DNA of 32,463 nucleotides. Origin: a virus. The translations under genes and the position numbers were made by a program. The notes below the pieces were generated by a model. The model saw only the letters and a list, made by a program, of their open reading frames with translations. It searched no databases and had not been told where the DNA came from. Positions 8,021 through 24,908 of the stretch are shown one piece after another. The stretch spans positions 1 to 32,463 of IMG/VR virus record IMGVR_UViG_3300044716_001156; one strand, 5' to 3'. Numbering within the stretch: the stretch's first letter is position 1; every line of letters begins with the position of its first letter.

Positions 8021-8405
8021 TCTTCACCTCCATCAATTCGGAATTGTCGTGGGTGTTGCCGATTACTTTTGTTGCAAATGCATGAGCAATCGGCAGCGGG
8101 GCATAAAAATTCCCTCGCTTTAACTTAAATCCATGTTCAAAAACAACCAAACAAGGCTCTTGAAGAGCTACTACAACATCATTAGTTACAATATCCCCTT
8201 CAAAAATGCGACTTCTATTTGCGTTATACAAGCCTGTAAACTGCCCAACCGTGACTGGGTCTACATAAACCCAGTCAAACTCTTTTACTTGACCCTTACC
8301 AGTTTGAAAATAGATTGCTGGTTGTATGTCATCCGAGTAGACTAATGAGCCATAAGCCCAATTTCCAGAGTTGGTTTTCCCTCTAAATATTATTTCTCTA
8401 TCCAT
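8010..8405 (-). CDS. YopX family protein
   Basis: 131 residues. REIIFRGKTNSGNWAYGSLVYSDD at the start, VDPVTVGQFTGLYNANRSRIFEGDIV in the centre and a C-terminal IGNTHDNSELM are the signature blocks of the YopX family, widespread phage early proteins of beta-rich fold and unresolved function. A 48-nt part of this gene (8151-8198) has a degenerate copy at 9587-9634, a recombination scar. Confidence 0.85.
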   Translation of the reverse strand: MDREIIFRGKTNSGNWAYGSLVYSDDIQPAIYFQTGKGQVKEFDWVYVDPVTVGQFTGLYNANRSRIFEGDIVTNDVVVALQEPCLVVFEHGFKLKRGNFYAPLPIAHAFATKVIGNTHDNSELMEVKNVN

Positions 8406-8964
8406 TTTTCAACAGCTCCTCTCTGACTTTGCCTTCAAACGGAAAAGAATCAGCTGGGTATTCATCATCAAACAATTTATTTAAATCGTATTGTAAAGTT
8501 TTTGCTCTTTCAGCAATAGCCTTGGCTAGTGGCTTTGGAGGACTAGGAATAATAGAATATTCGGTTTTTATCCCTTCCCCTTTCTTCGTAACGGTGAAGT
8601 CGTAGCCTTCGATTTGAACGCCGTAGTCAGGATTATTGATATATTCTCTGATGCTCTTAAGTAAGCCGATTTGAGTTAAGGACAGTATTTTGAAGCTGTC
8701 TGAGTTGTAGTCATAGACACAGCAAGCCATAAAATATTGGGGCTTTTGTCCAGGTTTGGAAGGTGGCAACATTGCCAACTCTTCAAATGTAAATGGATTC
8801 TTTTCGAGTCTGGTTAGCTTCATCGTTTTGTCTTCTAGTTTCACGAAGTATTCATAACCAGTGACAGGCAAGCCAATAAAGCGAAATTTGTTTGTTCCTG
8901 CTGTAAATTTTAGAAATTGGTCTTTTTGGTTTGGTAATTGGTAATTTGGATCAAAAAAGTTCAT
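8398..8964 (-). CDS. Putative phage single-stranded DNA-binding protein
   Basis: 188 residues from ATG at 8964, with AAGGGAAAA upstream; the in-frame extension to 9033 lacks a ribosome binding site. The opening MNFFDPNYQLPNQKDQFLKF, then GTNKFRFIGLPVTGYEYF, FMACCVYDYNSDSFKILSLT and DFTVTKKGEGIKTEYSIIP, matches a phage family commonly annotated as ssDNA-binding or recombination proteins with an OB-like core followed by an acidic tail (LFDDEYPADSF). In such proteins the acidic tail recruits partners. It would coat ssDNA during phage replication. The assignment is from pattern memory. Confidence 0.55.
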   Translation of the reverse strand: MNFFDPNYQLPNQKDQFLKFTAGTNKFRFIGLPVTGYEYFVKLEDKTMKLTRLEKNPFTFEELAMLPPSKPGQKPQYFMACCVYDYNSDSFKILSLTQIGLLKSIREYINNPDYGVQIEGYDFTVTKKGEGIKTEYSIIPSPPKPLAKAIAERAKTLQYDLNKLFDDEYPADSFPFEGKVREELLKNG

Positions 8965-9097
8965 TGTATTTTCCCTTTGCGTAGAGCGTTTAATTAATGG
9001 GGATTTGGCGCAAGTTCCCCTTCTCGCTGACATCCTAGTTTAACGTCTAATGTCCGACGTGGAAGCTTTGGTTTAGGGTTTACCAACCCGCCTAAAT
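8965..9097 (-). other. Intergenic region with two small hairpins
   Basis: A 133-nt gap in an otherwise gap-free operon. It contains ACGTC/GACGT (9043-9047/9056-9060) and GGGTT/AACCC (9076-9080/9085-9089) inverted repeats, neither followed by a T-run on the minus strand. It may hold an internal promoter, processing site or attenuator for the ssDNA-binding gene; no convincing promoter was found. Confidence 0.35.
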
Positions 9098-9364
9098 TTA
9101 TTTGCTTGCATAGAGCGTTATCATGTCTCTGTAATACTCACGGCGGCGTTGAGCTTGTTTGATTAGCTTTTTCTTTAAGCCTATATTTGGAAATTTAATA
9201 GCTAAATAAGCCTCTCTTTGGGATTCAATGGAGCCGTAGGTTTTATGGTCGGTTAGAGAGACAAAGTCATTTTCTTCTTCTTGTGCAGCCTCTAGCTCAT
9301 TCTCAAGCCTTTCAAGCTCCTTAATTACTGTTATATAGCTTGTTTGTAGTGTTTCTTTGTCCAA
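9098..9364 (-). CDS. Coiled-coil hypothetical protein (TTG start)
   Basis: 88 residues. The start is a TTG at 9364 with GGAGG five bases before it, a combination that favours TTG over any later Met. The protein is almost wholly helical and charged (ITVIKELERLENELEAAQEEEND; a second helix IGLKKKLIKQAQRRREYYRDM). It lies inside the end of the upstream gene (44-nt overlap). Function unknown. Confidence 0.65.
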   Translation of the reverse strand: MDKETLQTSYITVIKELERLENELEAAQEEENDFVSLTDHKTYGSIESQREAYLAIKFPNIGLKKKLIKQAQRRREYYRDMITLYASK

Positions 9365-9554
9365 CTTGTCCTCCGTTTATAAATGTATGTGTAAATTCTG
9401 TATTGTTGTGATTGCCAGACTGAATGGCCCTGTAGCTCCTGAGCTCTGCTTCAATAACGGAAATTGGTCTAGAGTTTTCTAATTTTCCCGATTGCATACG
9501 CTCTTTTTCAAGCTGATTGATTTTATGATCTACGTATAGTGGGTTTTGTGTCAT
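9321..9554 (-). CDS. Hypothetical protein behind a shared A-rich leader
   Basis: 77 residues from ATG at 9554 (MTQNPLYVDHKINQLEKERM). The 26 bases before the ATG are nearly identical to the spacers that precede the Gly-X repeat genes (CCCTAAACAAATTAAAC), although the protein itself is unrelated to them. The frame can be extended upstream to 9590, but only through that repeated spacer. There is no Shine-Dalgarno. Function unknown; Asn/Gln-rich tail (GNHNNTEFTHTFINGGQVGQ). Confidence 0.6.
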   Translation of the reverse strand: MTQNPLYVDHKINQLEKERMQSGKLENSRPISVIEAELRSYRAIQSGNHNNTEFTHTFINGGQVGQRNTTNKLYNSN

Positions 9555-9586
9555 TTTGTTTAATTTGTTTAGGGTATTATTCAAAA

Positions 9587-9634
9587 ACAAGGCTCTTGAA
9601 GAGCTGCTACAACATCACTAGTTGCAATATCCCC
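9587..9634 (-). repeat. Degenerate copy of part of the YopX gene
   Basis: Bases 9587-9634 match 8151-8198 of the YopX gene at 45 of 48 positions. The adjacent 11 bases 9580-9590 match 8136-8146, the intervening bases of the original being missing. The copy is out of frame: the last Gly-X gene reads into it, gains GYCN and stops. It marks an illegitimate recombination event at the edge of the Gly-X array. Confidence 0.85.
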
Positions 9635-9884
9635 CGTCACCATCGCCATAACCATAACCATCGCCCCAGCCATCGCCGTAACCATAACCGCCGCACCAGC
9701 CATAACCATCGCCATCGCCATCGCCACGACCATTGCCATAGCCTGAGCCGTCACCATTGCCATAGCCTAAGCCATCGCCACAACCATCGCCATGACCATA
9801 ACCATAACCATCGCCATAGCCACAACCTGAGCCTAAGCCGTAGGAATTTTGATTCACCTCAAAATTTATAGTACGTTTAGTCAT
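9618..9884 (-). CDS. Gly-X repeat protein A (fifth gene of the array)
   Basis: 88 residues from ATG at 9884. The N-terminus MTKRTINFEVNQNSYG is the conserved head of this family; the rest alternates Gly with Tyr, Asp, Asn, Ser, His, Cys or Trp (for example GYGDGYGYGHGDG). The last four residues come from the YopX-derived fragment, so this copy's end is a recombination junction. No Shine-Dalgarno precedes the ATG, only the A-rich spacer shared with other copies. No enzyme motif or membrane segment. Function unknown. Confidence 0.65.
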   Translation of the reverse strand: MTKRTINFEVNQNSYGLGSGCGYGDGYGYGHGDGCGDGLGYGNGDGSGYGNGRGDGDGDGYGWCGGYGYGDGWGDGYGYGDGDGGYCN

Positions 9885-9906
9885 TTTGTTTAATTTGTTT
9901 AGGGTA

Positions 9907-10185
9907 TTAGCCATCGCCGTCACCCCAACCGTAGCCATAGCCTGAGCCATAACCGTCACCGTCTATACCATCGCCATCACCAAAGCCATCGCCACAACCG
10001 TCACCGTCACCAAAGTTATCGCCATGACCATCACCATAGCCATTACCGCAACCATTGCCATAGCCGTCACCAAAGCCATCGCCATCATAAAAATAGTCAT
10101 TGCCACAACCATTGCCATAGCCTGAGCCATAACCGTCACCGTAGGAATTTTGATTTTCGTCAAAATTTATAGTACGTTTAGCCAT
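9907..10185 (-). CDS. Gly-X repeat protein B (fourth gene of the array)
   Basis: 92 residues from ATG at 10185. Head MAKRTINFDENQNSYG, then alternating Gly-X with several Asp and aromatic positions (GDGYGSGYGNGCGN, later DNFGDGDGCGDGFGDG). The single non-repetitive stretch is DYFYDGDGFGDG near residue 32. Stop TAA lies at the beginning of the next spacer, 22 nt before the next ATG, so termination-reinitiation is possible. Function unknown. Confidence 0.65.
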   Translation of the reverse strand: MAKRTINFDENQNSYGDGYGSGYGNGCGNDYFYDGDGFGDGYGNGCGNGYGDGHGDNFGDGDGCGDGFGDGDGIDGDGYGSGYGYGWGDGDG

Positions 10186-10208
10186 TTTTGTTTGATTTGT
10201 TTAGGGTA

Positions 10209-10466
10209 TTAACCGTTACCGTAATTGTCGCCATAGCCAAAGCCATTACCATCATAACCATAACCATAGCCACAGCCATCGCCATTACCGTTACCATCGT
10301 TACCATAACCGTTACCATAACCGTCACCGTCATGACCATAACCGTCACCATAACCGTCACCGTCGTCACCATAACCGCAGCCGCAGCCGCAGCCGTTGCC
10401 GTTGCCGTTGCCATCGTCGCCGTGGGAACTTTGATTTAACTCAAAATTTATAGTACGTTTAGCCAT
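10209..10466 (-). CDS. Gly-X repeat protein C (third gene of the array)
   Basis: 85 residues from ATG at 10466. Head MAKRTINFELNQSSHG, the most divergent head in the set, followed by GNGNGNGCGCGCGYG and then units such as DGDGYGDGYGHDGDGYGNG in which D-x-D-G spacing recurs. The end is GFGYGDNYGNG. Same SD-less A-rich upstream spacer. Function unknown. Confidence 0.65.
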   Translation of the reverse strand: MAKRTINFELNQSSHGDDGNGNGNGCGCGCGYGDDGDGYGDGYGHDGDGYGNGYGNDGNGNGDGCGYGYGYDGNGFGYGDNYGNG

Positions 10467-10488
10467 TTTGTTTAATTTGTTTAAGGTA

Positions 10489-10722
10489 CTAGTCGTTGTC
10501 GTTGTTCCAGCCATCGCCCCAACCGTCACCATCGCCATAACCATCGCCATCATAGCCAAAGCCTGAGCCAAAGCCATCGCCACGACCATTGCCATAGCCT
10601 GAGCCATCGCCGTCACCATTGCCATAGCCTGAGCCATAGCCTGAGCCAAAGCCATCGCCATAGTCATCGCCTGAACCGTAGGAATTTTGATTATCGTCAA
10701 AATTTATAGTACGTTTAGTCAT
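10489..10722 (-). CDS. Gly-X repeat protein D (second gene of the array)
   Basis: 77 residues from ATG at 10722, the shortest copy. Head MTKRTINFDDNQNSYG, then Gly-X alternation with more Phe and Arg; GSGYGNGRGDG is shared with copy A and GSGFGYDGDGYGDG with copy E, indicating mosaic exchange between copies. It ends GWGDGWNNDND. The upstream spacer is a diverged version of the common one. Long overlapping Met/Ala-rich frames on the same strand are artefacts of the repeat and were not called. Confidence 0.65.
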   Translation of the reverse strand: MTKRTINFDDNQNSYGSGDDYGDGFGSGYGSGYGNGDGDGSGYGNGRGDGFGSGFGYDGDGYGDGDGWGDGWNNDND

Positions 10723-10798
10723 TTTGTTTAATGAGTTAAGGGTATTAGCCGTAGCCATAGCCAGATTCCCGACTTCGGCAAAGTGGTACTCACTAGTA

Positions 10799-11068
10799 CT
10801 AGCCGTTACCATTGACGTAGCCATAGCCTGAGCCATAGCCTGAGCCATCACCACAGCCATAGTCTGAGCCATCACCATAGCCATCGCCATAACCATCGCC
10901 ATCATAGCCAAAGCCTGAGCCGTAACCTGAACCATTGCCATAGCCTGAGCCATCGCCGTAACCTGAACCATTGCCATAGCCTGAGCCATAGCCTGAGCCA
11001 AAGCCATCGCCATAGCCCTTGTCGTAGGAATTTTGATTCACCTCAAAATTTATAGTACGTTTAGCCAT
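10799..11068 (-). CDS. Gly-X repeat protein E (first gene of the array)
   Basis: 89 residues from ATG at 11068. Head MAKRTINFEVNQNSYD followed by the most regular Gly-X region (GYGDGFGSGYGSGYGNG and similar units). This is the only copy with a Shine-Dalgarno (GAGGAA about five bases before the ATG), located within the end of the preceding gene (19-nt overlap). It is therefore the likely founder copy; copies A-D carry the duplicated spacer instead. Function unknown; candidates include a structural or phase-separating low-complexity protein or a precursor peptide. Confidence 0.7.
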   Translation of the reverse strand: MAKRTINFEVNQNSYDKGYGDGFGSGYGSGYGNGSGYGDGSGYGNGSGYGSGFGYDGDGYGDGYGDGSDYGCGDGSGYGSGYGYVNGNG

Positions 11069-11370
11069 TTTGATTCCTCGGCAGCTAAGGTGAAAACAAC
11101 TGTTAAGTAATCAAATTCAACGAGTCCGTTACATTTATCCAATTTTGTATTTGTTAAAGGGCCATTTTGTGCAAGCTCTCCAAGCCCTCTTGAAGTGCCC
11201 CAAGATCTAATAACCGAGGCATTGTGCAATTTGCACTCAGAGCCATCTCTTTCAAATCGCCCAATCAGAACGTGCCCTCTTTGCAAAACGCAAATTTTAA
11301 TATCTCCAGCGGCTTCTGTTGGTGGATTTTTGTAATACACTTCGCCATTTATTGTTATTGATTCGTTCAT
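11050..11370 (-). CDS. DUF6948-like phage early protein
   Basis: 106 residues. It begins ESITINGEVYY, continues IKICVLQRGHVLIGRFERDGSECKLHNASVIRSWG, then GLGELAQNGP and closes with EFDYLTVVFTLAAEE. This order (short 'ITING' strand, a 'v.R...v..G.......g....L.nA..i..W' core, 'l..lA..G', a final strand) is one I associate with small phage proteins of the DUF6948 type, without known function. AAGGAAC precedes the ATG. Its end carries the ribosome binding site of the Gly-X array. Confidence 0.65.
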   Translation of the reverse strand: MNESITINGEVYYKNPPTEAAGDIKICVLQRGHVLIGRFERDGSECKLHNASVIRSWGTSRGLGELAQNGPLTNTKLDKCNGLVEFDYLTVVFTLAAEESKWLNVL

Positions 11371-18369: not shown

Positions 18370-18791
18370 CCGATTTTAAGCCATACAAAGCAAATCCCAC
18401 AATCGCAACAGGCGACCAAATGAAGAAGGTGGAAGATTTAGACCTGCCTACCAGTTGGAAGCCCGTAAACAATCTGGCCTATATAAAGCCTAATACTGAT
18501 ATTACGGTTATAGTTAGAGAAAGCGGTTGGAGCACAAATGCGCTCGGAATTTCGATGCCATACAGGCAAATAGAAGAACATATTACGCTTGATGCGGCTT
18601 GCTCAGTGCGAGTAATCGACGAAGTAGATCCAGGCAAATTTCTGTGTCGTTATACAGGAGATGACATGGTAGATAACTTTATGGTAGTCCCTTTTGAGGC
18701 GCTTACCTTTGACGAATGGAGTCAAGAGATATGCACTTTACAGCAACGCAACGACAAAGTAATTGATGACGTAATGCAGCTATTAGAATAA
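18366..18791 (+). CDS. Hypothetical protein upstream of portal
   Basis: 141 residues, beta-rich with barrel-like strands (DITVIVRESGWSTNALGISMPYRQIEEHITLDAACSVRVIDEVDPGKFLCRYTG) and a C-terminal helix (LQQRNDKVIDDVMQLLE). The middle resembles a small SH3/OB-like barrel. Coupled on both sides (ATGA and TAATGA junctions) within the packaging operon. Family not recognised. Confidence 0.75.
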   Translation: MTDFKPYKANPTIATGDQMKKVEDLDLPTSWKPVNNLAYIKPNTDITVIVRESGWSTNALGISMPYRQIEEHITLDAACSVRVIDEVDPGKFLCRYTGDDMVDNFMVVPFEALTFDEWSQEICTLQQRNDKVIDDVMQLLE

Positions 18792-20980
18792 TGAGCAATT
18801 TACAACAACTTGGACTCTCTGGAATGCCCCAAATGATGGAGGCTGATAGCAAACCCTCTTTAGATGATGTTATGAGGGCAGTAGAAAGAGCCGATCAAGT
18901 ATTCGAAAAAAATATTACAGCGAGAGCAAACCTGAATAGCGATTGGGCAAAACACGTAAAAGCGGCAATTGATGGAGAAAATGAATCAGAAATCACTTCG
19001 CTGGCTCAAAGATATTTGCATGTTGGGGATAATACATTTGCCACTAATTGGAGACAAGGGAATCAAAGACGAGTCAAATTTATGGATGATGACTGGTTTA
19101 GATTGATTCCAAATGATACTTTCAATGCTGATCCTTTTCTGTGCAATATCAAAGCTTCTTATCTAGCTGCAAATCTCAAAAAGCCTAAATCTTATTTCAA
19201 GATGACTTGGCAAAATGTAGATGCTCAGTTTGGTCTATTAAACAGTACAGCAATGCATTATCGCTATGCTTGCGATGTTAAGCCCGACAGGAAGACCAGA
19301 AGAGTCACAGAAAACGGCCGCACCAAGATGACATTTGAGCAGGGGGAAAGCAAATTAGTTCATCAGGGCGGGGTTGCAACCTTTGTGAATATGTTTAACT
19401 GCTATCCAGACGTTATCAATTGCGCAACACAAAACCCGTTTGAGCGAGATGTTTATTACAAAGAAGCTGCAATGTTTGATGCAGTGATAAATAATCCCTT
19501 ATTTGATGCGTCTAAAGAGTATGTTTACGAAGATTGCGTGATTTACAGGGGGATTGAATCACTTAGTGAGTTAGAAGCTAGAAGCGTTAGCTACGAAAAG
19601 AGTTCAGCCGAAAAAGAATTAGAATACAAAGCAAATACTAGGCCAACTGTTGGACAAATAGCCATTAGGAGCGCTTATCTGAATGAATTTAAGATAAAAG
19701 ACCAAGTTTATGAAGACGTAAATGTATTCTGGGCAAAAAATGGGGGAAATTGCTATCCATTATTAGTTGAATTCAATCAACTTCCTTACAAAGCTATTCT
19801 TACAGCCACTAATTGGGCTAATCCTTGGGATTTATACGGCAAATCACAGGCTCAATTAACCTACAATCAGCATTCAACCCGTGGGTTTTTACTTTCAGCT
19901 TTAGCTTATGAAGTAGTTTCAAGCATATTTGACCCTGTCTTAATTCCCTCTGAGTTTATTGACGCTGTAATCAAAGCTGGTGGTGACAAAAACATTCTGC
20001 AAGCGGCTTTTAGAAGAGATCCAAAAGCCCTTAACAAAATGATTCCTTACCAATATGCAGGTGATGGAATTGGAGCAAATATTGATTACAGAGGCTTGAT
20101 CGGTGGAGTTAATCAAGGTAAGTCAAACTACAACCTTCAATTGATTCAGCAAGGCCTAGCAATGACCACAGGCGAAATGCAAAATACGCAGGTTGATTTA
20201 AAATCGGTTGATGTTAATGCTTCAACTGCTAAGGGAGTTGAATTTATTACAGCTCAACAAGGGGACGCGCTTAGATCCAGCTTAGATATACTCTCAGAGT
20301 GCATTCTTAAGCCATTCCTTGAGATGTGCTTGCATGATATGAGTACAAAGCTTTTCCCTGAACAATTCGGCTTAGAATTGCCTGATGAAGTGAAGGCAAG
20401 AATGGAACAAAGCCCAGAATATCAAAATCTGGCTAATGAATATGAAAGAGTATTTCAGTTAAATAATGTAATCACCCTTCCAAATGGTCAATCGGTACCA
20501 ATTCAATATAACAATCTGACAAATAAGGTAAGCCTAGAAATAACTAGAGAATTTATTGAATCAATTGATGCAGATATTGAGATTCAGATTGAAAACAATG
20601 ATTATGACAAGCAACAAATAAGGGCTGCTATCACTGATTTAACAAATCTAACGGCTTCACTACCAGCAGAGGCACAAGAATTTAAAACAATGATGCTAGC
20701 GGCACTTACTGAGCAAACGCTTGAACTATACAAATTCCCTAAACGCAAAGAATTGATTCAAAAACTGCAAATGGGAATTATTAATCCAGAGCAACAAGCA
20801 CAGCAACAGGCTCAAACTCAATTAACTCAAGCTGAAGCGGTTAAAACTCAAGCACAAGCCGAAAAATACAGTGCAGAGGCAAAGGAAGAAGCCACTAGAG
20901 CACAAGCGCAAGGAATGGCAAATGAAGACAAGATTAAGCAGGATGAAATGATTGATCAGCTAGTTGGTCGGGGTGTTTAA
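18791..20980 (+). CDS. Portal protein
   Basis: 729 residues, the size of podovirus (P22-like) portals. The N-terminal region carries helices and the conserved-looking VGDNTFATNWRQGNQRRVKFMDDDWFRLIPN. The middle is mixed alpha/beta (wing), with QAQLTYNQHSTRGFLLSALAYEVVSSIFDPVLIPS and the stem-like NIDYRGLIGGVNQGKSNYNLQLIQQGLAMTTGEM. The C-terminus (about residues 655-720) is a Gln/Ala/Glu-rich coiled coil typical of portal barrels that project into the capsid. It forms the dodecameric DNA entry pore and contacts terminase. Its last 47 bases overlap a convergent gene on the other strand. Confidence 0.85.
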   Translation: MSNLQQLGLSGMPQMMEADSKPSLDDVMRAVERADQVFEKNITARANLNSDWAKHVKAAIDGENESEITSLAQRYLHVGDNTFATNWRQGNQRRVKFMDDDWFRLIPNDTFNADPFLCNIKASYLAANLKKPKSYFKMTWQNVDAQFGLLNSTAMHYRYACDVKPDRKTRRVTENGRTKMTFEQGESKLVHQGGVATFVNMFNCYPDVINCATQNPFERDVYYKEAAMFDAVINNPLFDASKEYVYEDCVIYRGIESLSELEARSVSYEKSSAEKELEYKANTRPTVGQIAIRSAYLNEFKIKDQVYEDVNVFWAKNGGNCYPLLVEFNQLPYKAILTATNWANPWDLYGKSQAQLTYNQHSTRGFLLSALAYEVVSSIFDPVLIPSEFIDAVIKAGGDKNILQAAFRRDPKALNKMIPYQYAGDGIGANIDYRGLIGGVNQGKSNYNLQLIQQGLAMTTGEMQNTQVDLKSVDVNASTAKGVEFITAQQGDALRSSLDILSECILKPFLEMCLHDMSTKLFPEQFGLELPDEVKARMEQSPEYQNLANEYERVFQLNNVITLPNGQSVPIQYNNLTNKVSLEITREFIESIDADIEIQIENNDYDKQQIRAAITDLTNLTASLPAEAQEFKTMMLAALTEQTLELYKFPKRKELIQKLQMGIINPEQQAQQQAQTQLTQAEAVKTQAQAEKYSAEAKEEATRAQAQGMANEDKIKQDEMIDQLVGRGV

Positions 20981-23930: not shown

Positions 23931-24908
23931 ATGTCATACCCCCTTAATAACACAACAAATCAAGCTAACGTAGCTTTCCAGCTTTTGAGCGGAACTACAT
24001 TGAGTTTTCTTGGTGATGAGACTCTCTTGTTCGGGAAAGAATTCACCGCACCAAATTCAAGCACAAAATCAAGCCCTGATAGACCTATTGTCCTCCGCAA
24101 GATTGAAGCAAGCGCAGGATCAATTATGAAAGGTCAACGTTACACAATACGTAAAGAACGCCCAGTAACTGCAACAGATAGATCAGAAAACAGCCCTGTT
24201 AATCTTCAAACTCGTACCTATGAACTTATCGACTTATTTGTAAACAGATACAAAGAAGTCGGTGTTGGTACTACTAGAAGAGCAAAAGCTCAAACATCTA
24301 CCTATGATGCTCAATCCAATGCAGCTGCAAATGCCAGCGCTTTGGCTCGTGCAATGGAACAAGATATTTATGCAATATTCCCCACCTTTAGCCGTTCTTT
24401 AGGTGATGGAACCACTTCAAGAACTAGTGCCGATATTGTTAACGCCTTAAACGTTTTTCAAAATAACGGAATGGATGTCAGAAATTATCAAATCTATGAC
24501 TTATGTACTCCTGAAGTTTACTCATCTTACAAACTAGAAGACCAAATCAGAAGATGGGATCATATTGGACAAACAGGCGCAAATAACTACATTAAAGGCT
24601 ATATCCAAGAAACAGTAAACGGCGCTAAACCAATTCCTACTTCTTATGGTGGTAGTCCTGATGGTTTGCCAATTAATAGAGCTGGTTCAGCACCTTATCA
24701 GGCTGTAATGGTAGGCAATGGAGCTGATCCAATCTTCTTAGGGGTTGGCCTCAAATACAACGCCACTAACGAAACTATTCCGTTAATGGATGGCGCTGAA
24801 GCCGATTACGCAACCATTCTTTACGGTGTCACTAGAGGCCGTGACGAAGCTGGTGTATACATGAACTACCTAAATCTCAACGGCAGGCCAGCATCCGTGC
24901 TGAATTAA
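23931..24908 (+). CDS. Major capsid protein
   Basis: 325 residues. It opens MSYPLNNTTNQANVAFQLLS; then PIVLRKIEASAGSIMKGQRYTIRKERPVTATDRSENSPVNLQTRTYELIDLFVNRYKEVGVGTTRRAKAQTS suggests the P-domain/spine arrangement of HK97-fold capsids. YNATNETIPLMDGAEADYATILYGVTRGRDEAGVYMNYLNLNGRPA gives a beta-rich end. Placement after scaffold and its length support major capsid. The ATG has no Shine-Dalgarno, only an A-rich AATCAAAAA run, notable for a gene that must be highly expressed. Confidence 0.75.
   Translation: MSYPLNNTTNQANVAFQLLSGTTLSFLGDETLLFGKEFTAPNSSTKSSPDRPIVLRKIEASAGSIMKGQRYTIRKERPVTATDRSENSPVNLQTRTYELIDLFVNRYKEVGVGTTRRAKAQTSTYDAQSNAAANASALARAMEQDIYAIFPTFSRSLGDGTTSRTSADIVNALNVFQNNGMDVRNYQIYDLCTPEVYSSYKLEDQIRRWDHIGQTGANNYIKGYIQETVNGAKPIPTSYGGSPDGLPINRAGSAPYQAVMVGNGADPIFLGVGLKYNATNETIPLMDGAEADYATILYGVTRGRDEAGVYMNYLNLNGRPASVLN

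Follow-up and report, generated by a model that had tools for sequence, protein, structure and literature searches.

We found that an array of five small genes in a phage genome arose by amplification of the second gene in a two-gene module that is widespread among phages. The first gene of the module encodes a protein of the DUF6948 type and the second a low-complexity protein built on a Gly-X pattern. With near certainty, the two genes form a near-obligate, co-inherited and usually overlapping pair. The stretch of DNA analysed here (the window) is a 32,463-base IMG/VR virus record, and its features at this locus are the following:

11050..11370, minus strand: DUF6948-type gene, 106 aa, predicted Sm/LSm fold (iterated HMM, AlphaFold, Foldseek)
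10799..11068, minus strand: Gly-X copy 1, ORF, 89 aa
10723..10798, minus strand: spacer between copies 1 and 2, 76 nt
10489..10722, minus strand: Gly-X copy 2, ORF, 77 aa
10467..10488, minus strand: constant 22-nt spacer of the TACCYTAAACAAATTAAACAAA type, between copies 2 and 3
10209..10466, minus strand: Gly-X copy 3, ORF, 85 aa
9907..10185, minus strand: Gly-X copy 4, ORF, 92 aa
9618..9884, minus strand: Gly-X copy 5, ORF, 88 aa
10186-10208, 9885-9906 and ~9556-9577, minus strand: spacers like that at 10467..10488, the last one before the next gene
9585..9634, minus strand: 50-nt fragment at the 3' end of copy 5, 94% identical to a YopX-like gene (8149-8198)
9321..9554, minus strand: small non-Gly-X gene (MTQNPLYVDHK...), preceded by the same spacer
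8398..9033, minus strand: downstream ssDNA-binding-protein-like gene (phrog_8542, 8e-10; phrog_1192, 1e-8)

The five ORFs (11068-9618, minus strand) encode proteins of 77-92 aa, each with a Gly-X body behind the common head M[AT]KRTINF[ED]xNQ[NS]S[YH]. A sequence-only reading of this DNA had described five tandem paralogues with a constant head and a variable low-complexity body, and our analysis confirmed this description. Gly-X alternation was also present, but calling it strict was a slight overstatement, as it is broken at, for example, GNDYFYDG, GYDGDG and GDDGDG; the glycine content of the bodies is 43-49%. None of the Pfam and PHROG families accounts for the five proteins (best PHROG E value 0.057, not real members). 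Matches of the bodies to the Pfam families TrAA12, keratin and keratin-associated protein were below cut-off and were dismissed as composition artefacts.

Most copies are set apart by a 22-23-nt spacer of the TACCCTAAACAAATTAAACAAA type, and the same spacers occur in the related array of contig L004. Since this spacer also precedes the unrelated next gene (9321..9554), which has no convincing family match in Pfam or PHROGs, the array looks like a unit of gene plus spacer that was inserted repeatedly between the upstream gene and its small downstream neighbour. Between copies 1 and 2, the spacer is ~54 nt longer than its 22-23-nt counterpart in L004, and this extra sequence has no other match within the window. 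At the other end of the array, the YopX-like fragment provides copy 5 with its last residues and stop codon; this junction is also found in L002 and L004.

The array is not a product of chance: when the head motif, written as a degenerate pattern of 24 bases, was run against 2.9 million viral contigs, only eight stretches matched. The same locus was recovered with seven copies in L004 and with four in L002, and L001 carries a single-copy homologue with the same head beside the same upstream gene. The matches in L003 and L005-L008 (MAKRTINFYSI* or an unrelated protein) were discarded as chance hits. The terminase and portal of L001 look unlike those of the window phage, whose lineage is far from cultured phages. 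The portal-sized and capsid-sized genes of the window (18791-20980 and 23931-24908) had no PHROG match and its terminase only a distant one.

For the five orthologous gene pairs between the window and L004, pooled pS was 0.106 and pN 0.030 (pN/pS ~0.28). Frame and head are kept in orthologous copies, and the differences consist of in-frame indels and exchanged tracts. The substitution pattern indicates that the Gly-X genes of the window are open and under purifying selection, and the copies appear to behave as real coding genes with a fast turnover of the array. Loss of the head at this locus in related phages, or frameshifts in close relatives, would have spoken against the original description; the head was present in L004 and L002, and none of the five window-L004 pairs contained a frameshift. 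Multi-copy arrays elsewhere, which had been proposed as something to look for, exist in these two contigs and in other lineages as well.

The gene directly upstream of copy 1 (11370-11050) overlaps it by 19 nt, so that the first six codons of copy 1 overprint its end. The sequence-only reading had recognised the array at this locus but missed this key neighbour, which is the best functional clue. Its product matched PF22253 (DUF6948), a phage family of unknown function, only weakly (5e-4, 20.6 bits; Pfam cut-off 27). Iterated HMM searches joined it to bona fide DUF6948 proteins at 6e-32, and its structure model matched models of annotated viral DUF6948 proteins with a Foldseek E value of 3e-7. 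Canonical members score above the Pfam cut-off (E about 1e-30), and those of L105, L073, L021 and L068 pass it at 73-105 bits. Through these intermediates and the same predicted fold, the window protein belongs to DUF6948 as a member of a divergent subfamily.

How regularly the two genes occur together was determined in two directions. In the forward test, loci were collected by a Gly-X DNA pattern and DUF6948 genes were then identified by iterated HMM; a Gly-X run was located ≤300 nt downstream of 63 of the 72 DUF6948-type genes. Because this set had been chosen for Gly-X, a reverse test was run from DUF6948 alone, with the window-like subfamily against viral contigs and the canonical subfamily against 84,980 prokaryote species genomes. 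The queries were two subfamily alignments, which had themselves been derived from Gly-X-flanked loci. A Gly-X ORF was present at the expected place in 118 of 124 evaluable loci, i.e. those with enough downstream sequence (76/77 on viral contigs and 42/47 on prokaryote contigs); not all of these loci are independent (L141 is L004, and L142 is L002), and MAG contigs with tentative host names account for many of the genome contigs. That the pair occurs together in ~95% of tested loci from very different hosts suggests that it serves a frequent phage need.

The start of the second gene usually lies inside the end of the first. The commonest overlaps are 19, 13 and 16 nt, and the overlap is kept across phages, which points to translational coupling. 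DUF6948 proteins have ~100 residues and Gly-X proteins about 55-130, and DUF6948 is single-copy in nearly all loci, also beside Gly-X arrays. No in-frame fusion of the two genes was found in any locus examined, so a contact between the two proteins is suggested by their linkage. Two candidate fusions were rejected: phrog_18306 (Gly-X-like at 58-131, DUF6948 at 151-237), which yielded two matches in 399 genomes, both long unrelated ORFs, and an apparent fusion in the uncultured phage ctRVW222, which was due to wrong-frame annotation.

The pair is also present in cultured and other named phages. In the Rheinheimera Barba phages it corresponds to gp018 (DUF6948) and gp017 (Gly-X), and we found it in Iodobacter phage phiPLPE, Pectobacterium phage Ymer, Vibrio phage IKEMa6-1 and Chlorobiaceae phage CV-1-33. 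In ctRVW222 (L274) the order is reversed, with the Gly-X gene (1429-1663) preceding DUF6948, and the pair is intact. The Gly-X ORF of phiPLPE (L136, 1161-1407) is unannotated and that of CV-1-33 (L137, 3292-3537) is annotated in the wrong frame (MAMALAM...); with such cases, ctRVW222 among them, the family must be under-counted in databases. The genes near the pair are often early or recombination genes coding for ERF, a YqaJ-like exonuclease, an ssDNA-binding protein or a DNA methyltransferase; the names of ERF, the YqaJ-like exonuclease and the methyltransferase were assigned by reading the sequences. In the window, the ssDNA-binding neighbour that had been proposed earlier (9033-8398) does match phage ssDNA-binding families.

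The heads of the Gly-X proteins differ between lineages and comprise INFEDSQNS-, PVG- and SKLNKP-types as well as short MExL-types. When head class was mapped on the DUF6948 tree, 15 changes were required, compared with at least 64 in 200 shuffles. This concordance would fit a head that docks on DUF6948, but plain co-inheritance alone could also produce it. Constant-head arrays arose repeatedly, also in lineages whose heads are of other types: at least seven copies of the M(K)IAINFEDSQNSH-type are present in L196, most with a constant GVGY tail, L012 and L212 have four copies each, and several loci have two or three.

AlphaFold predicted a confident structure for the window-type DUF6948 protein (pLDDT 90.3, pTM 0.76) and for the second subfamily, which was modelled separately (pLDDT 96.0, pTM 0.87); both are monomer predictions. 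For each model, the best 50 Foldseek matches in the PDB were all Sm/LSm-fold proteins, among them archaeal and spliceosome/snRNP Sm/LSm chains, 3BY7, the LSm-built TIP60 cages and the LSm-fold subunit of NatC. The best matches reached a target-normalised TM score of 0.74 with an rmsd of ~2 Å, at E values of only ~1e-3. The models thus make it very probable that DUF6948 adopts an Sm/LSm fold. DUF6948 proteins had no match to the Pfam LSM family, PF01423 gave none over the window, and sequence searches of the PDB linked DUF6948 to no Sm protein. In classical Sm proteins the RG motif contacts RNA, and the Sm2 RG(D/N) motif is absent from both subfamily alignments (A3 and A4). With modest E values, and with sequence searches blind to the Sm link, our result is a fold assignment and not proof of RNA binding.

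Sm-like phage proteins are known in general, and 3BY7 is an Sm-like metagenomic protein which we take to be of putative cyanophage origin. DUF6948 shares its predicted barrel with 3BY7, archaeal SmAP and LSm1-7. It differs from them in a helix inserted between strands 3 and 4, and not only at the N-terminus, in the absence of the RG motif and of any sequence match, and in having its low-complexity part encoded by a separate gene. Low-complexity tails also take part in the function of some eukaryotic Sm/LSm proteins.

We hypothesized that the module couples an Sm-like hub to a low-complexity 'sticker' partner. The DUF6948 protein would form a ring and bind phage or host RNA (or ssDNA), and the lineage-specific head would dock the Gly-X protein on this ring. 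Tyrosine stickers, spaced by Gly-Asn/Ser/Asp, would then cross-link the rings through weak, multivalent interactions, giving rise early in infection to a ribonucleoprotein-like assembly or condensate. With several Gly-X copies for one Sm-like gene, a phage would tune the mixture and valency of the assembly. As only composition and register would matter, the body could drift by slippage and recombination of 6-nt units. We infer RNA binding and condensation from fold and composition, and we give the full mechanism somewhat less than an even chance. An argument against it is that the bodies are without Arg, which many RNA-granule proteins use. A wider version, in which phages of many bacterial phyla build an RNP condensate in trans from a viral Sm-like ring and a rapidly evolving Gly-[Tyr/Asp/Asn/Ser] scaffold, in some cases with up to seven paralogues sharing one docking head, we consider rather unlikely.

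Across 116 Gly-X proteins encoded at loci anchored on DUF6948, X was Tyr in 37%, Asp in 25%, Asn in 19% and Ser in 14% of cases, with other residues at <2% each. Tyr occurred in 104 of 104 bodies long enough to count, at 12-60% of X, and Asp was absent from two of them. Asn and Ser interchange: 50 bodies were of the N-type, 34 of the S-type and seven of both. Net charge had a median of -9 and ranged from -21 to +1. The bodies keep a grammar (Gly, Tyr and register) and not a sequence, with Asp dispensable and Asn or Ser mostly alternatives; their low complexity goes along with a conserved composition and with aromatic stickers. Retention of Tyr and Gly in an otherwise free sequence makes the earlier suggestion of a phase-separating low-complexity domain the best fit.

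Leader/core peptides, metal sites and DNA mimicry are all disfavoured by this conservation of composition over sequence, DNA mimicry because Asp is dispensable and net charge reaches +1. That the proteins are RiPP-like precursors, with the head as leader and the body as a variable core processed by a maturation enzyme, was suggested by the constant head, the variable body and the tandem copies. We found no modifying enzyme or protease conserved beside the pair, and DUF6948, with its ~100 aa, has no catalytic signature. Moreover, the single-copy form is the rule, the bodies have no conserved core residue or cleavage site, and the heads change between phage lineages. The idea is unsupported for these reasons and highly improbable. 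Equally improbable is binding of calcium or another metal by RTX-like or EF-like Asp-Gly repeats: DGDG stretches are present in the window copies, but the earlier proposal of calcium binding is unsupported because Asp can make up 0% of X in family bodies, and the nonapeptide spacing of RTX repeats is absent.

A silk- or amyloid-like material is another possibility, in which Gly-X proteins would form fibres, a gel or a virion-associated layer nucleated by the Sm-like ring, with no role for RNA. Its appeal is that, in a two-residue register, the X side chains would all point to the same face of a beta-strand; this register survives indels, and Tyr is always present. The Asp-rich net charge, however, makes tight beta stacking unfavourable, most X residues are polar and Ala is missing among them, and the genes lie in the early/DNA-metabolism region and not among tail and head genes. 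We therefore regard such a material as unlikely.

Indels seen in the Gly-X genes comprised whole dipeptides. Among 115 Barba records, the locus measured 866, 872 or 896 bases in the variants listed, and the three variants compared differed by +6 or +30 nt in the Gly-X gene, i.e. by one or five net dipeptides. One Gly codon dominates each gene (median 97%); it is GGC in 92 of 111 genes over a GC range of 24-69%. In the Gly-X genes of the window, GGA or GGG made up two of 164 Gly codons; in five other genes from this phage the figure was 44 of 108. The Gly-X gene of Barba18A consists almost purely of (T/A/G)ACGGC. These observations could indicate that the nucleic acid itself is functional, the 6-nt repeats being a recombination hotspot or an RNA ligand of the Sm-like protein, with the protein secondary. 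However, GGT, GGG or GGA is the Gly codon throughout in other phages, with Ser encoded by TCN or AGY, so the common feature is the protein pattern and not one DNA sequence. Codons vary by phage, yet Gly-[YDNS] is maintained along with the start codon, the gene overlap and the frame; the indels seen are multiples of six, and His (CAC), only one base away, is nearly absent. Hexamer slippage and recombination explain the codon uniformity in part, not fully, and slippage together with avoidance of internal Shine-Dalgarno-like GGAG would account for the codons. A primary function of the nucleic acid is therefore very doubtful. Queuosine codons as the basis of the pattern (X mainly NAY codons) were rejected, since Ser is common and His nearly absent. 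Almost pure (T/A/G)ACGGC hexamers are found in Gly-X genes more generally, for example in L135 (4253-4462).

The module could also act in counter-defence or host takeover, with Gly-X proteins as cheap, fast-changing decoys that trap, inhibit or aggregate a host factor, and with the Sm-like protein as their chaperone, neutraliser or regulator. Both genes are small and lie in the early region, turnover is rapid (four, five or seven copies), DNA methyltransferase, ERF or YqaJ-like exonuclease genes are often nearby, and the distribution is patchy but very broad; a coupled small pair also resembles many anti-host cassettes. Yet the body conserves composition and no surface, which would be odd for a specific inhibitor. 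We saw no pattern of variation pointing to a host target, and the constancy of one partner fold across very diverse hosts speaks for a function internal to the phage. An anti-host role is thus improbable, if slightly less so than a silk-like material.

Among known proteins that resemble the Gly-X bodies, hnRNPA1 and FUS have prion-like, Gly-Tyr-rich low-complexity domains, and Bombyx mori fibroin is a Gly-X repeat. The phage bodies resemble the former in their composition of G, Y, N, S and D and in retaining aromatics while order is free; they differ in their dipeptide register, in having almost no Arg or Lys, and in the lack of a folded RNA-binding domain in the same chain. With fibroin and plant glycine-rich proteins they share the Gly-X dipeptide repeat, but X is mainly Ala or Ser in fibroin and Tyr, Asp, Asn or Ser in the early-region phage proteins. 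The profiles of PHROGs 18306, 10432, 20392, 815 and 11232 (unknown function) hold DUF6948-like and/or Gly-X stretches.

In the open-access literature, we found no paper on DUF6948 or on an Sm-like/Gly-X pair, and nothing relevant on Gly-X phage proteins, phage condensates or phage Sm-like proteins. As far as this literature goes, the module is newly recognised, including the Sm-like fold of DUF6948 and its pairing with Gly-X, and an Sm-like phage protein with an obligate low-complexity partner has not been described. Both halves have so far been left without annotation, labelled 'hypothetical' or annotated in a wrong frame. If our reading is true, bacteriophages use the logic of eukaryotic RNP granules, a ring hub and a sticker-spacer protein, with the parts in separate genes. 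The module is directly testable in cultured phages such as the Rheinheimera Barba phages and phiPLPE. The arrays, moreover, are a natural experiment on what a low-complexity protein needs: Tyr and the register persist, Asn can stand in for Ser and vice versa, and Asp is optional.

Several variants of the locus were observed. In L091 (9147-10420) the entire pair is duplicated in tandem. The module also occurs in Neisseria contigs with the head MSYLDxxL (L264 and L259, titled N. gonorrhoeae and N. sicca), and DUF6948 was present in two of 46 Neisseria genomes. A larger uncharacterised domain follows the Gly-X stretch in L023, L056, L248 and L275, and in one subfamily (L021, L081, L123, L127, L050 and L038) the head is replaced by a domain of 50-60 residues (DVLDxGACxDGVxxF...).
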